Positions 1 through 16,386 of a stretch of 20,158 bases of DNA are shown here, piece after piece. Within the stretch, counting starts at the first letter, position 1. Each line of letters begins with the position of its first letter. The notes under the pieces were generated by a model, which saw nothing but the letters and a program-made list of their open reading frames with translations, was not told the DNA's origin and did not search any database. A program made the translations under genes and the position numbers. Origin of the DNA: a virus. The stretch is taken from IMG/VR virus record IMGVR_UViG_3300042691_009400, positions 1 through 20,158 of that record. One strand, written 5' to 3'.

Positions 1-3000
1 CCGGCTGACCGAGCCGGGTCAGGTCGCGGTCGATGCTCGTGGCAATGCGAGTCATGACCTTGTTCAAGAGCCGCAGTTGCACTAGTTGCGGGTCTTGCTG
101 CTGGTTGAACAAGTCGAGCACGATCTGCTGACCTTCCTGCGTCCGCACGTCGGCGGTCTGCACCTGACGCGGGCCGAGGGTGTTCAGCTCGGCGAGGCGT
201 TGCTGCTGGCGGTCGAACTCGGCAGCGTCAGCCTTAGCCCGCTCTTCGGCGAGCTTCCGCTGCTCCTCAAAGGCCGCTTTCTGACGCTCGGCAACTTCCT
301 GCTGTTGCTGGGCTGCGGCCCGCTGCTGCTCCTTCTGTCGGTCTTCGTCAGCCTTGGCGGCTTCGGCAATAGCCCTCTCGTTCGCCTTGACAGCCTCGGC
401 CCGAGCCTTTTCGGCGTCGTCGATGTTCTTCAACTCCTGGTCGAAGAGTTCCTTCTGCCGAGCCACCTCCGCGTCGAACGCTTCCTTGTTCAGGATGCCG
501 TCGCGGGCCTGCTCTTGGGCAGCGGCGATGCCCTCTTGCAGCCGCGCCGCAGCCTCAGCACCGGCATTGCCGAACTCTTCTGCCTTCGTGATCGTCTGGC
601 CGATAGCCCTGTCAACGTCCTCGAACGCTCTGGCGAAGCCTTCGCCGAAGCCCTGCTCCGAAGCCTGCTGCTGATCCTCAAGCCGGGACTGCAACTGGTC
701 GAGTTGGGCGAGACGCGCGGCGGCAGCGTCAGCCTCCGCTTGGTTGCTGGCCTCACGAGCCGCGAGCAAGTCAGCGGTCGCCTGGGCCTGCTGCTCTTGC
801 ACGGCGATGATGTCCTGCTCGACTTGCGTCTGCTCTTGGCCGGCAGCCAGCAACTCGTCAACCCGCGCCCGCTGGTCTTCAAGCCGCTGCCTTTCGGCGT
901 CTGCTGCGGCTGCCGACCCGTCCGCGATGGACTGCTGCTGGTTGCGGATCTCCTCCAGTTGGCGAATCCGCTCTTCGCCGTTGGCAACCGCCTGCTCATC
1001 GCCGCCCTCGCCAGCCGCCGCCACCTCTTCGCGAACGCGGGCAATCTCGCGCTCCACCGCCAAAACTTGATCGGCTGCCTGCGCCCGATCCGCGTCGCCG
1101 CCGAACTCCCGCTGAATGCGTGCCTGCTCTAGAAGCTGGTCGGCTACCTGACGGTCAGCCTCTGCCTTTCGCTCCGCTTCGTCGGCAGCCTTGCGGGTCT
1201 CCTCTTGGACGATGCGAAGCGCTTCGATCTGGCGTTCGTACTCAGCCGTCGCGTTGGCAACGCCACGGGCGTACTGCTCGCCGTTCAACTCGTTGGCGTC
1301 CGCCTGTTCCTTCAGGTCTTCCAACGCCTGCTGGAACTCAAAGGCGGCATCGAAGCCAGCCTGCCCGAACTCGCCAGCCTTTTCGATGGCACCGTCGAGC
1401 GAGTTGTTTCCAGCTTCCACCGCCCGCTGCAAATCCTCGTACGCCTTCTTTTGCTCAGCCGTCATCTCGACGGCAGCGGTAGCGACTTGCTCCACCTTTT
1501 CGGAGGTCTGCGATGCGGTTTCTTCGACACCGAAAAACGTCTCGGCAAAGAAGTCTTTCACCGACAAGATCAGGTCGTTGATCGGGCCGAACGCTTGGGT
1601 GATCGACTGACTCACGAAGTCGAGGGCTTGGCTGACGCCACGGGCCGCAGCCGCGAACGGCTCCAGTGCCGCTGAGATGAGGTTCAGCACGACGCTCGTC
1701 ACTTGCCCGACCGTGTTGACAAGCACGCCAAGAACGCTCGTGAACGGCGAGAGAATGTCCAAGATGTTCCCGAGCACCCGACCGAACGAAGCGATGGACG
1801 GGGCCAACGCTTCCGCAATGGACTGCGCCACGCCGGTGAATGGCGTGAGCAACTCGCGTCCGAACCCGAGGATGCTCCGCTGCACGTCCTCGAACGCACC
1901 GTCAAGCTCTAGCAGTCGGTCGGCTTCTAGCTGGCTGATCGCACCACCGAACCGGCGGATGGCTTGCGTTGATCCTTCGATCTCGCCGAACGCGCGCACG
2001 AGGCTCTCGCCGCCGCGACCGAGAACCTCGATCTGCAACTGTGCCTGCCTCGCCGGCTCGGGGATTTCTGCCAGAGCTTCGGCCACGCGGGACGCGAACT
2101 CGGTCGGGTCGTTCTGCCCTTGCTGGATTTCTTCAAGAGAAAACCCAAGCTGCTGCAAGGCGTTGAACGTCTCGCCGCTACCCTGAGCCGCTTCTGAAAG
2201 CCTCGCCCCGAATCGCTGCACGCCGGTCGCCAGAGCCTCGACGCTGACGCCCGCGCGCGTCGCGGCCTCTTCGAGCACCTGAATCGTCTGGAAGTCTACG
2301 CCCGCCTGCCGAGCCGCGAACGAAAGCTCCTCAACCCTGCCCGTGAGTTGCGTGAGCCCCTGAGCCACCGCCGTCGCCGCAGCCCCGAACCCAGCCACGC
2401 CAGCCACGGCAAGCGTGAACGGGTTCACAAGCCCTGCCACCGACGCCCCGATGCTGCTGAGCCCTTGCGACAGCCCGCCGCCGAACACACGGGCGAGCCC
2501 CTCGCCGGCGGAAGAAAGCCCCGAGAGTCGCCCTGAGATATTGCCAATCGGGCCGGGCAGGGCAGACAGCACGCCGGATAGTTCGTTGAACTTGAGCGTG
2601 CCCGCGTCGCCTGCCGAGTCGGACGCCGCCGCGTACTTGTTCGCCTCGATTGTCGCCTTGGCGAAGGCGTCGGCAGATCGCTGGAGAGCATCGCTGTATT
2701 GCTGTTCGTCAAGCAGCCCTGCCTCTCTGAGCCGATTCAACTCGGCAACCGACTGCTCGTAGGATTTGTTGGCTCTCTGCTCTTTCGTTAGCCCGGCTTC
2801 AATAATCTCTGCGGCACGCGAAACAGCCGCCGCGCGCTCCTTCTCGGCATCGGCGGCAACTCTTGCGGCAGCCGCAGCCTCTTCAGCAAGTTGCGTGTCA
2901 AATGCCTTGGCAGCGATACGCTCTGATTCGGCAAGAGCTTCCGCTCGCTGCCTAGCCGCCTCTGTGGCTTGCCTGTTGATTCCAAGAGCCTCGATGGCAG

Positions 3001-11473: not shown

Positions 11474-13275
11474 TCCTTCCGCTTCCTCGGCTTCCGCTTC
11501 GGCTTGTCCTTGTACGCCCGCGCCGCCTCCGGCTGCTCTGTCACCTGGAGGTCGGCCACCTTGACCGCCACCGGCTCGTCAAATTCGTTCTCGTCCCACA
11601 CGCTCACGAGGGCGGCAGGATCGTCGGGCGTCGCGGGCATCTCCACGTCGCCCAGATTCAGCGTGCCTTCGGTCATCACATGATCGACGCGACCCACGCG
11701 CCCATCGGGCAACGCGACCCACATGCCTTCGGCAACGTCAAGCGAGCGACCCGCCGGGGCAGTGGGCATCGGCTCGGTTTGCGGCGGCTGCGCATCGACC
11801 GCTGCTGGTGCGGGCTGACGCTCCACCACCCCGGCAAGAATCGCCGCAATCTGTGCAGTGTTCATACTCGGGAACGCCGCAGCCACCATCGCCGCCGCAC
11901 CCTCGCGACTCACCAGCCCATCGACAACCGACTGAATGATCGCAATGAGCCCCGTGATCTGGGCACCGTTCAGCGACACGTCCGCGACTTGCGGAGCCTC
12001 GGGCTCGGCAGGCTCGCCCGGCGTCGCAGGCACCACCGGCTCGCCAGCCGCAGCGGCAAGCCCGCCCTCGACCGCCTGCCCGTCAATCTCGCTGCCCGGC
12101 TGCTGCTGAGCCAGCACGTCGCCCTCGCTCGGCTGCTCGCCCAGCGTGCCCATGTTCAGCGGGCGGTAGCGAACGTCGCCGCCCTCGACCGGGTCGAGGT
12201 TTTCGTAGTTGCGAATGTCGTTCGTCGAAACGACGCCGATGTCCCACATGGCACGGTAGTACGCCGACCGGCTGGCGGCATCGCCACGCAGCAGCCCACG
12301 CACATCGAACTCGACCAGATAGCGGTCATCGTCTGCGATCAAGTCACGCATGAACGCCGATTCAAACCGACGCAGCCACGGCATGATGCAGTGGGTCACG
12401 AACGCGATGTCGGCCTCGGGCGTCGCGGGGCCGATGCCAAGCAGGTGCCCAGGTACGCGGAACAGCCGGGCGATCTCCTCAAGCTGGTAGCGGCGAAGCT
12501 CGATGAACTGGCTGTCGGTATTGCTCGACTGCGGAATGTCGTAGGGCTTGAGCCCGCCGGTCAGCACCGCCGTGTTGTGGGAATTTCCCACTCCACCATG
12601 CCGCCGGTCCCACTGCGACCGCAACGCCTCGCGGGCCTCCGCGTTCAGTTGCCCTTCGGTCGAGAGTACAAACCCGGGGCGGGCACCGGCCGCAAAGAAG
12701 CGTGCCCCGTGCAACTCGCAAGCCCGGGCTAGTGCGATGGCGTCCTTGCACTCCGCGACGACGCTCATCCCGTTCACGCCGTCATCAGACGGGCCGCGAA
12801 TCTGGAGGATCGCATCCTCGGAATACGGCGTCTCCGTGCCCTTATCTTCTCGGTACTTGTACCGCAGCTTCCCGTTCTCGATCCGCTCCACCTTCATCCG
12901 GCTCGGATGCAGCGGCACGATCTGCCCCGCCTTCAGTTCATCGAAGGCGTCGCCCCACAAGCCGATATGAAACACCGCCTGCTCGCGCCACTCAAAGCTG
13001 GTCTGCCATCCGTTCGGCTGGCTGTGCAGTTGCCGGTAGAGCGGCAGTTCGCGGGCGATCCGCTTCCCGCCCCCAGCCGTCCGCTCCAGCACATGCAGCG
13101 GCAAACCCGCCACCGTCTCGGCGATCACCCGCAGGCAGGCGAACACCTCCGCGACTTGGTGGGCATTGCTCTCGTCAATCCGCACGCCAGCACTCGACCG
13201 GCTCGATGGCTCGTCATCCCACATGCGGGATTCGCCGGGGAGCCAGAGGATGCGGTTGTCGGTTTGGGCGATCAT
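11470..13275 (-). CDS. Portal protein, HK97 family, with long C-terminal extension
   Basis: A 601-residue protein. Residues 1-380 match HK97-type portals: VFACLRVIAETVAGLPLHV at 45-62, FEWREQAVFHIGLWGDAF at 94-111, QFIELRRYQLEEIARLFRVP at 256-275 and the VPGHLLG turn. It forms the dodecameric ring at one vertex through which DNA is packaged and exits. A Pro/Ala/Glu-rich linker (about 380-430) leads to a helical domain LNGAQITGLIAIIQSVV with SREGAAAMV (435-483), a motif known from the C-terminus of several phage portals. After a second Pro-rich linker comes a small beta domain, GMWVALPDGRVGRVDHVM (517-578), and a very basic tail (KDKPKRKPRKRKE). Usual portals have about 400 residues. ATGA overlaps link it to terminase and protease. 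Confidence 0.94.
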   Translation of the reverse strand: MIAQTDNRILWLPGESRMWDDEPSSRSSAGVRIDESNAHQVAEVFACLRVIAETVAGLPLHVLERTAGGGKRIARELPLYRQLHSQPNGWQTSFEWREQAVFHIGLWGDAFDELKAGQIVPLHPSRMKVERIENGKLRYKYREDKGTETPYSEDAILQIRGPSDDGVNGMSVVAECKDAIALARACELHGARFFAAGARPGFVLSTEGQLNAEAREALRSQWDRRHGGVGNSHNTAVLTGGLKPYDIPQSSNTDSQFIELRRYQLEEIARLFRVPGHLLGIGPATPEADIAFVTHCIMPWLRRFESAFMRDLIADDDRYLVEFDVRGLLRGDAASRSAYYRAMWDIGVVSTNDIRNYENLDPVEGGDVRYRPLNMGTLGEQPSEGDVLAQQQPGSEIDGQAVEGGLAAAAGEPVVPATPGEPAEPEAPQVADVSLNGAQITGLIAIIQSVVDGLVSREGAAAMVAAAFPSMNTAQIAAILAGVVERQPAPAAVDAQPPQTEPMPTAPAGRSLDVAEGMWVALPDGRVGRVDHVMTEGTLNLGDVEMPATPDDPAALVSVWDENEFDEPVAVKVADLQVTEQPEAARAYKDKPKRKPRKRKE

Positions 13276-14951
13276 ATGAAGAAGATTTCAGGGTTCGACG
13301 CGGAGTTCGTGACGCTGTTTGCTTCCCATCCGCCGAGCGCGAAGATGCAGGCCACGATGCCGTCGATGCGTCCAGTGCTCTTTTTCTTGACCGGGCGAAC
13401 GTCCTCGAACGCATTCACTTCCGTGCAGACGCAGCCGGCCATCCACGACAGCACAGGGTTCCCGCCATGCCGAATCCGCTTCTGGAGCACAAGCGACTCC
13501 AGCAACTTCGTCGGGCTGCTCATCGAGCGGAAGCCTTGCCCGAATGATTCCACAAACAACCCCGCCCCTTGCAGTTCCACTCCAAGCTGGACGGCCCCCG
13601 TCATATCCATCAGCACACGCTCGACCTTGTGCTTTTTGGCGTATTCCAGCACGTATTCACGGATGACACCGTGATCTATGACGTTCCCGCTGGTCGCCGT
13701 GATGAACCCGGTGTTGACCCAGTGCTGGAACGGCTGGCGGTCGGTTCGCTCGCGTTCCATGATGAGGTCACGCGGAGCCCAGAACATCGCCTCAACGTCG
13801 AACGTGCCATCCTCGCTCGGGAATAGGGCGACGCAAGCCGAGAGGTCGGTGGACTTCGACAAGTCCATCCCGATGATGCACGACTTGCCGGCGAGCGGCT
13901 CGCGCGGGCCTTCCGAGCACGCCGCCCACTTGTCAGGGTCGAGCCACCTGTTCGTGCTTTCTGTCCACACTCCCAAGGAATATCTGAGCCAGCCGTTGAG
14001 CTTTGTGGGCTTGTTCTTCGCCTCGCGGGCGTCCGCAGCAAACGCTTCCTCGGTCATGGTGACGCCCATCCCTGGATTCACCCGCCGCCATGTCGCCGGT
14101 GAGAAATAGTCCTCTGTGCCGTCAGTCTTTGCACCGAAAATCTTGCCGTAGAAGCGGGGATCGTAGTTAGGATCGGCAATCACTTGCTCGGCGTACTCGT
14201 GCTGCTCCCAGCAAATCGTGTCGCGGCGGTCGCCGGCAGTTGAGATCGTCGCAAGGAGCGGCGCAGCTCTGGATCGGCCCGAGTAGCGGAGCGCCTCGAA
14301 AAGACGCCTGTCGGGCCACGCATGCAGTTCGTCGCAAAACACGAACGAGTAACTCGGGCCTTCGGCCGCCCCGGCGTCCCGCGAGATCACCCGCATCGAA
14401 GATCCGGTCGCTTGGCAGACGATGGTCTTTCTGGAATCGACAACTTCCAGCGTCGCCGCCAATTCAGGCGAACGCTTTACCATTGCCGCTGTCTCGTCGA
14501 AAATGATCGCGGCTTGGTTGCGGTCTTTCGCCGCGATGCACCCTAGCTCGCCCTCGCCCTCCATGAGCAGGTGCCAGATCGAGAGAGCCGATAGAAGTGT
14601 CGATTTGCCTTGTCGTCTTGGCCCCCGCAGCGATCACGCCGCAGGGGCCAAGACGCCATTTTTTTTGGGCACCTCAATGTATGACAGCCGATACCTACGC
14701 AGGTTGTCAGGTCCACGCCACCCATACAGGGGCTCAATCACGTCATGCTTATGCCAGTCGAGGAGTTGCATCGGCTCGCCAGCTTTCGCAGTCGGCGAGT
14801 CTTTTGTGTGGCAGCAGACGGATTCAAGGAATCGCACGACTAGGTCGGCGTCCCCTTGATGGTAGGTGAAGCCCTCGACCCACTCAGCCCGGCGTCTTGC
14901 CGGCAGCCTTGAGGGCACGGAACTTTTCGAGCGTGCTTTGCGGCTTGGCAT
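13272..14951 (-). CDS. Terminase large subunit, interrupted in Walker A by a stop-containing insertion
   Basis: This is the packaging motor ATPase and nuclease. The N-terminal part has an adenine-binding region (PMQLLDWHKHDVIEPLYGW) and YIEVPKKNG, the start of Walker A; then 45 nt containing TGA (14636-14634) interrupt it, and GKSTLLSALSIW resumes in the same frame. Downstream everything looks intact: IAAKDRNQAAI, Walker B FVFCDELHAW (Asp at 14333), coupling motif ATISTAG, and the three nuclease aspartates in GMDLSKS (13865), LMDMTGA (13607) and GRIDGIV (13364). Without the insertion the protein would have 543 residues, normal for this family. I take the ATG at 14951 (AAGG upstream), overlapping the small terminase gene by 68 nt; a GTG at 14918 is the alternative. 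The intact remainder argues against old decay. Confidence 0.88.
14607..14657 (-). other. 48-nt hairpin insertion with stop codon between two GGC codons in the terminase gene
   Basis: On the minus strand, codon AAT is followed by GGC (14657-14655), fifteen codons including TGA, then GGC (14609-14607) and AAA TCG ACA. The segment keeps frame. Its core is an 18-bp hairpin (14655-14638 with 14631-14614; 16 Watson-Crick pairs and 2 G-U pairs in the minus-strand RNA) with the TGA in the 6-nt loop. Skipping from GGC to GGC restores VPKKNGKST. Mismatched positions pair as G-U only in the sense RNA. Candidates are a translational bypass element, a palindromic insertion that kills or attenuates the gene, or a sequence artefact. 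Confidence 0.7.
14634..14951 (-). CDS. Terminase large subunit N-terminal fragment as read without recoding
   Basis: Read conventionally from the ATG at 14951, translation ends at the TGA at 14636-14634 after 105 residues, the last ones being VPKKNGVLAPAA. The fragment holds the adenine-binding region and the first half of Walker A only, so it cannot hydrolyse ATP. The next ATG for the remainder, at 14564, lies beyond Walker A, so re-initiation there would give a motor without its P-loop. It is listed because a standard gene finder would report it as a separate small gene. Confidence 0.6.
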   Translation of the reverse strand: MPSRKARSKSSVPSRLPARRRAEWVEGFTYHQGDADLVVRFLESVCCHTKDSPTAKAGEPMQLLDWHKHDVIEPLYGWRGPDNLRRYRLSYIEVPKKNGVLAPAA

Positions 14952-15390: not shown

Positions 15391-16386
15391 TCACGGTGTC
15401 GCAAAGACTGCGATGAGCATCTGCCCGCCGCCTTTTCGGCCCTTCCTGCCGTTGCACTTCCGGCACAGGCACTGCGAGTTGTCAAACGTATTGCCCTTGT
15501 CGGGCACGCCCCACGACAGCGGCACGATATGGTCGTGCTCCGCGTTCCGCTGGCTGGCCCGCCGAGTTCGCTTGTCGAACCTGTGCCTTCCTTTATGGCA
15601 TTTCACCCCGCATTGCTGGCAGACCCAGCCGTCACGCTCGCACACAGCCTCTCGCGTGCAGGCGGGGTCGAATGGCACGTTGAACTGCTTGCATCGCTTT
15701 CGCAGCGAAGTCGCCAGCGAATGACGGCAAGCGGCTTCGATGCCAGACTTTGGCGACGGCCGGCGCGGGCGATTTGTGCCCCAGCGGTGGTCTAGGTAGC
15801 ACTCGCGCGAACAATACTTGCCCTTGTCTTGATGCGGCATCTTGCCGTTGACTGAGCGAGTGAACGACTGACCGCAGCCGACGCAGGTTTTCTCGTGGCT
15901 CGGCTTGCTTGCGATCCAGCAGTCCCACGAGCAGAACCGGCGTTTCTCTGCCTTGTGTGATGCGATCTCGAAAGGCTTTTTGCAATGCTGGCACTGCAAG
16001 CCAGCCCTGTCTCTATGGGCTAGATGGCCGCACTCGGCAGAGCAGAATTTCTGCCGTTGGCGGTCGGAGCGGAACGGCTGGCTGCAATGCTGGCAAGTGC
16101 ATTCGTGTATCAGCGTGTTCCTGCTGAGGCGTCGCAAGGCGTGCTGACGCTGGCTCGCCGCCGACTTGCATTCACTGCACCGGCTTGGAAGCGGCCCTCG
16201 TCGCGGGAGTGTCGGAATCTGCTTGCCGCAGTCTTTGCACGAAGCGGCTTGCCATTGAGAAAGCCGGCGAGATTTCTCTCTGGCAGAGGCCGACTTTTTG
16301 CGGCACGAAGAACAACGCAATGGCCACCGTCGCGCGGGAGGGCGACGCTGAATCTCCACGCCACAGTCAAGGCACGAGCGACACAT
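15391..16386 (-). CDS. HNH endonuclease with five N-terminal zinc modules
   Basis: A 331-residue protein. Two modules of the form C-x2-C...C-x2-C (Cys5/8/25/28 and Cys50/53/70/73) are followed by three of the form C-x2-C...F/Y-C-x3-C (Cys98/101/115/119, 132/135/152/156, 168/171/192/196). The C-terminal HNH domain has CERDGWVCQQCG (Cys256/259), AEHDHIVPLSWG with the catalytic histidine pair (284/286), FDNSQCLC and CRKCNGRKG. HNH nucleases beside terminase can assist cos cleavage (HK97 gp74), but that type is short; the long zinc array suggests sequence-specific DNA binding as in free-standing homing endonucleases. No Shine-Dalgarno sequence precedes the ATG at 16386, and a stop lies 8 codons upstream in frame, so the start is fixed. 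Confidence 0.88.
   Translation of the reverse strand: MCRSCLDCGVEIQRRPPARRWPLRCSSCRKKSASAREKSRRLSQWQAASCKDCGKQIPTLPRRGPLPSRCSECKSAASQRQHALRRLSRNTLIHECTCQHCSQPFRSDRQRQKFCSAECGHLAHRDRAGLQCQHCKKPFEIASHKAEKRRFCSWDCWIASKPSHEKTCVGCGQSFTRSVNGKMPHQDKGKYCSRECYLDHRWGTNRPRRPSPKSGIEAACRHSLATSLRKRCKQFNVPFDPACTREAVCERDGWVCQQCGVKCHKGRHRFDKRTRRASQRNAEHDHIVPLSWGVPDKGNTFDNSQCLCRKCNGRKGRKGGGQMLIAVFATP

Follow-up and report, generated by a model that had tools for sequence, protein, structure and literature searches.

How can the terminase large subunit (TerL) be made from a gene that is interrupted at its Walker A motif by a hairpin-bearing insert? This question is raised by the minus strand of a 20,158-nt IMG/VR viral contig, the whole of which was analysed (hereafter the window) and which carries on that strand an HK97-type structure and packaging block comprising terminase small subunit, TerL, portal, protease, capsid and head-tail genes. 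From comparison of sequences we conclude that the insert is probably a programmed translational-bypass element, at which a hop between matched codons would give an uninterrupted TerL.

The interrupted terminase gene

Translation of 14960-13272(-) gives ...YIEVPKKNGVLAPAA*SLRGPRRQGKSTLLSAL..., in which frame 0 runs on beyond the end of ORF1 (...YIEVPKKNG) with VLAPAA and then meets a stop, and TerL resumes as ORF2 at KSTLLSAL. The features of the locus are as follows:

14655..14951 (-): TerL ORF1, the N-terminal part, ending at the putative take-off codon; matches phrog_9 180-233
14659..14666 (-): A8 run (CCC AAA AAA AAT GGC), shortly before the take-off codon
14655..14657 (-): putative take-off codon GGC (Gly), its last base being the first base of the stem (sequence, fold)
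14637..14655 (-): 5' hairpin arm, 19 nt (fold; covariation over 18 pairs)
14633..14636 (-): loop UGAU with in-frame UGA at 14636-14634 (translation, fold)
14614..14632 (-): 3' hairpin arm, 19 nt (fold, covariation)
14610..14654 (-): coding gap of 45 nt (hairpin and short spacer), proposed as bypassed
14607..14609 (-): putative landing codon GGC, undecoded in the proposed product (take-off/landing match, parsimony)
13272..14606 (-): TerL ORF2 (KSTLLSAL...; remaining ATPase domain and nuclease; Pfam TerL_ATPase and TerL_nuclease; phrog_9 from 236)

ORF1 starts at the ATG at 14951-14949 or at an alternative start upstream. As the preliminary description had it, GGC stands on both sides of the gap in the same frame (14657-14655 and 14609-14607, separated by 45 nt), with an in-frame TGA (14636-14634) between, and the TerL gene of the window is 48 nt longer by this insert. 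On phrog_9, the PHROG TerL profile, the N-terminal part matches up to 233 and the C-terminal part from 236; the two parts abut, and the insert is therefore the sole extra sequence in TerL. Upstream of the terminase small subunit gene, at 15391-16386 (-), the window also encodes an HNH protein of 331 aa, whose HNH domain is preceded by several Cys-pair (zinc-ribbon-like) repeats and whose homologues occur chiefly in insert-free relatives.

Hairpin alleles and their reading frames

A first pattern, representing the arms of the hairpin, matched 19 other viral contigs, all at the same TerL codon, and further alleles were gathered by searches anchored on the TerL protein and the flanking codons. 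In all, 40 distinct hairpin alleles were collected from more than 40 other IMG/VR contigs and more than 40 IMG datasets, at one Walker A position, so that the insert, which the preliminary description had proposed to seek in other phages, recurs there as the same hairpin at the same place in TerL. The comparison with homologues also yielded 82 distinct insert-free TerL sites, some of them in close relatives. A near-perfect inverted repeat is a typical form of an assembly or amplification artefact (a snap-back palindrome), an explanation refuted by recurrence, with the same hairpin, carrying compensatory changes, found at one codon in contigs of more than 40 datasets, and its probability is practically nil.

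Inserts of this type were sought in other genes across 2.47 Mb of loci and were found in TerL only, at three sites. A search for the hairpin in 84,980 bacterial and archaeal genomes returned 12 matches, all unrelated, with other loops and in other contexts, and named phages gave no DNA match to the element region of the window. A close relative of the TerL is absent from 289 Verrucomicrobiota genomes searched with a partial query, while 398 genomes of the phylum of G005 hold TerL proteins of 27-38% identity only.

Relative to insert-free genes the extra DNA amounts to 46, 47, 48, 49, 50 or 51 nt, corresponding to a coding gap of 43-48 nt and a hop length (gap plus landing codon) of 46-51 nt. 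All three phases are thus represented: 14 alleles are in frame, 22 are at +2 and 4 at +1, and the in-frame state is scattered across the hairpin family. An in-frame stop is missing from half of the alleles (20/40) and is TAG, TGA or TAA in the others; in no allele does a stop directly follow take-off, the next codon always encoding Val, Ala, Ser or Arg. The earlier remark that the stop does not adjoin the take-off codon therefore holds throughout, and the stop itself is dispensable, whereas gene 60 depends on it. In three alleles (L128, L131 and L134) a frame-0 stop in the loop is accompanied by a second stop, past the hairpin, in the frame of ORF2, and a single frameshift therefore cannot join their ORFs.

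These figures bear directly on readthrough of the in-frame TGA (or its decoding as selenocysteine), which would add 16 residues and create a second Walker A-like motif, GPRRQGKST, and which had been regarded as the main rival. It suits the window itself, where the 48-nt insert is in frame and the readthrough peptide ends in GKST, but relatives carry 46, 47, 49 or 50 extra nt, 26 of the 40 alleles are out of frame, and half are free of stops. With all three frames in use and half of the alleles lacking a stop, neither readthrough nor a single frameshift can explain the family; readthrough is refuted for the family as a whole, the rival is largely removed, and we hold it highly improbable. Selenocysteine was rejected on the count of TGA, the first in-frame stop in only four of the 40 alleles.

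Should the hairpin inactivate TerL, damage would be expected elsewhere in the gene, as had been pointed out beforehand. Instead, purifying selection is strong in both ORFs: dN/dS is 0.08-0.29 on either side of the insert between hairpin-bearing phages that differ by dS near 1, and 0.08-0.23 for ORF2 between hairpin-bearing relatives. With both ORFs under purifying selection, the joined protein is presumably made. That TerL is truly split into two chains, or is inactivated by the hairpin in defective or minority genomes, we consider very unlikely; the insert-free alleles of close relatives would allow each carrier lineage to be recent, but these dN/dS values, a nine-row clade made up of hairpin carriers only, and the conservation of position and landing codon all argue otherwise, and ORF2 opens within the P-loop without a start codon there, its first ATG lying 13 codons further on.

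The hairpin, the codon pair and the proposed hop

The hairpin of the window, with the TGA in its loop, begins at the last base of the first GGC, as both fold and translation confirm. Its stem, put at 18 bp in the preliminary description, comprises 19 bp when the last C of that GGC is counted, with a minimum free energy of -49.3 kcal/mol (z -7.4 versus shuffles); the sense strand pairs through both G-U positions, and the antisense strand breaks at both (-43.3 kcal/mol, z -5.6), in line with the claim that the non-Watson-Crick positions pair as G-U in the sense RNA only. Across the family the stem measures 17-20 bp. An alignment of 18 pairs in 29 sequences has standard pairs in 97.7% of its cells, with seven pairs changed on both sides, and a covariation score that none of 500 shuffles reaches (above 500/500), whereas in slid structures the paired share drops to 41-53%. 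Many pairs in the family stems are G-U, the antisense equivalents of which are A-C mismatches. The hairpin is thus selected as sense RNA.

The opposite strand of the window, at 14609-14666 (+), has a T8 run following the hairpin and looks like an intrinsic terminator. A hairpin acting as DNA or as antisense RNA, be it a cruciform, a packaging site or an antisense terminator, would be consistent with this resemblance to a stem followed by a T run and with the strong enrichment of the A8/T8 run beside the hairpin in carriers, but would leave the production of TerL unexplained; moreover, covariation preserves many G-U pairs that can form in sense RNA only, and the inserts at the second and third TerL sites (see below) have no A8/T8 run. 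Such a role is extremely improbable. The antisense terminator in particular was rejected, as the terminator scan did not flag it and the G-U pairs do not fit.

The take-off codon encodes Gly in all alleles but one (L014), where an AAT/AAC pair (Asn) is used, the hairpin lies one codon further upstream without altering the product, NGKST. The landing codon equals the take-off codon at positions 1 and 2 in 31 of 32 distinct alleles; at other offsets within 12 nt a match is seen in 0-3 of the 32, save for two offsets scoring 7 and 11, at which the compared triplet lies in, or borders, the G-rich 3' arm. The wobble base of the landing codon varies, and 26 different 8-nt spacers stand beside it. 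By parsimony, the three positions of the landing codon have undergone 2, 1 and 7 changes, against 6-10 for each of the six preceding spacer positions. Conservation of positions 1 and 2 with a free third base is the pattern predicted by tRNA re-pairing. Matched codons would also arise initially if insertion duplicated 3 bp of the target, yet this does not account for the persistence of positions 1 and 2 as the spacer drifts. A Shine-Dalgarno-like element 5' of the landing codon was examined as well, and the spacer is variable there, with 26 different 8-mers. The sole exception to the match is L018, which has TGC at 1310-1312 (-) where a GGN landing codon is expected, and a hop between matched codons explains every other allele.

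The hop itself and its efficiency we infer from sequence, and the proposed course is the following. The ribosome would decode ...VPKKNG and halt with peptidyl-tRNA-Gly on GGC, against the 17-20 bp hairpin that begins at that codon. The peptidyl-tRNA would then quit the codon, 43-48 nt being passed undecoded, and the same tRNA would re-pair, a few nt 3' of the stem, with a codon matching at least at positions 1 and 2 (GGN). Decoding would restart at AAA (Lys) to give an uninterrupted TerL with VPKKNGKST as its Walker A motif. The GGC-to-GGC bypass restoring VPKKNGKST, first suggested from the window alone, thus gains support from comparative data, namely frame independence and codon match.

Alternatively, a small intron or a processing event might cut the hairpin out of the mRNA, between the two codon copies, before normal translation. 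This would likewise be independent of frame and yield an identical protein, with the conserved hairpin as a possible processing signal. We know of no self-excising bacterial mRNA intron of 43-48 nt, which counts against this explanation, and the ends of the insert have no fixed motif (GGN/GGN, AAT/AAC or CTG/CTG) but are aligned to codons and matched with freedom at the wobble base, features for which a splicing enzyme would have no use. Rfam, furthermore, contains no known RNA family that matches within the window. RNA-level excision is unlikely.

The A8 run just upstream of take-off is present in 29 of 31 hairpin alleles versus 15 of 81 insert-free sites among the protein-search loci (Fisher p 1.3e-13, ignoring relatedness), and is invariant in a small sample of 11 related hairpin-bearing loci. 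Iterated AAA codons slow and slide ribosomes (PMC4363877), and the run may therefore help take-off; that it merely hitch-hikes with the flank is just as possible. The synonymous codons flanking the insert in carriers are AAA AAA AAT before and TCN (Ser) behind, whereas many insert-free relatives have AAG and AGY, and carriers have Gly within a clade whose insert-free members use Ala (NAKST). These differences suggest either that a small cassette moved together with its flanks or that selection acts on those bases. In that large TerL clade (the insert-free members among L022-L101) Ala replaces Gly in the Walker A motif, giving VPKKNAKST, the exceptions being the hairpin carriers and L045.

Apparent mobility, further sites and known systems

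A TerL tree of 113 sequences calls for 13 changes of state in hairpin presence, of which well supported branches force at least ten. Carriers are spread over several deep TerL branches, and close relatives with and without the hairpin occur (L118/L177, L044/L045 and L140/L142); horizontal transfer from one terminase gene to another appears to have carried the element along with a few codons on its flanks. The window has two HNH genes; in a test for a homing cassette, their homologues showed no association with hairpin carriers. In four relatives (L065, L075, L158 and L166) the TerL gene contains inteins that end in ...THN, with STLL following, some two codons away from the site of the hairpin. 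An insert in the P-loop could block intein homing, a speculation that draws on the parallel of mobA and gene 60, the history of which is reviewed in PMC5009743.

Two further sites in TerL carry hairpin inserts. Site 2, between EGL and NIH in L218, has a CTG/CTG pair (Leu), a gap of 47 nt and a 22-bp stem with a UUCG loop. Site 3, between RLW and DALRYGG, is occupied in L218, L226 and L253 by a clear hairpin insert that bears a weak similarity (E 0.012-0.031) to the main family. Over both sites together, the inserts span 972-1026 and 1081-1135 in L218, 1037-1090 in L226 and 1054-1107 in L253. No matched-codon hop restoring the exact protein could be assigned at site 3, where TGG would need to land on CGC, CGA or AGA, none of which matches; a candidate GGC-to-GGC hop of 23-24 nt that leaves eight extra residues would fit. 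Whether we are dealing with a mobile bypass family in phage terminases that can dispense with a stop codon, occupies three sites and rivals inteins for the P-loop, with nothing but a 17-20 bp hairpin and matched codons to set the hop, is in our judgement evenly balanced.

For ribosome hopping the main known examples are gene 60 of phage T4 and the mitochondria of some yeasts, and efficient programmed bypassing in practice from one bacterial-type example, that of gene 60. Against this background the present family offers dozens of natural variants that differ in the length of the gap, in the stem, in the codon pair and in the distance to landing, and insert-free relatives serve as controls. The variants sit in an essential phage gene, and with them comparative and reporter tests can address what governs take-off and landing. 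The family also suggests that phages can harbour mobile bypass elements, and it serves as a warning that terminases of this kind will be annotated as broken by gene finders. A review of 2016 noted that counterparts of bypassing had long been presumed yet were scarce (PMC5009743), and our search of the open-licence literature found no description of the TerL hairpin element.

Suspected bypass in a phage terminase gene has been described for Streptomyces phage Hau3 (PMC5009743); the bypass proposed there is associated with UUA, the gap being much shorter and centred on a UUA codon. The terminase inteins share with the hairpin the P-loop region of TerL, but inteins are removed from the protein, and the hairpin codes for no protein of its own. 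The byp elements of Magnusiomyces/Saprochaete yeast mitochondria are likewise short inserts in coding sequence that are skipped in translation and apparently mobile, with codons often matched and the third position relaxed (PMC5009743); byps, however, are spread over numerous mitochondrial genes and have been described as depending little on mRNA context, whereas the phage element is limited to TerL in the data examined and is conserved in structure and sequence.

The likeness to T4 gene 60 (GGA to GGA, about 47-50 nt) is closest. Here, too, the putative take-off and landing codons are matched Gly codons, the stem-loop begins at the take-off codon, the gap is of similar length (43-48 nt, and 47 nt at site 2, where the loop is likewise UUCG), the downstream ORF lies in an arbitrary frame and insert-free homologues exist. 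In both cases the product belongs to an essential phage gene, and the gene 60 insert is suspected to have spread with homing elements (PMC5009743, PMC11194080). Sliding in gene 60 is processive up to 56 nt (PMC11194080), a range within which the TerL hop length of 46-51 nt falls. The TerL element differs in having no stop directly after take-off and a much longer, GC stem of 17-20 bp. A KKYK-type nascent-peptide signal 25-30 residues upstream, a feature of gene 60, is absent from ORF1 of the window, and the ORF1 peptides of insert-free homologues are similar. The element further occurs in many phage lineages, with variable gap length, and in a terminase rather than a topoisomerase subunit. Judged from the comparisons above, the best reading of the TerL element would be a variant of T4 gene 60-type bypass that has spread horizontally.
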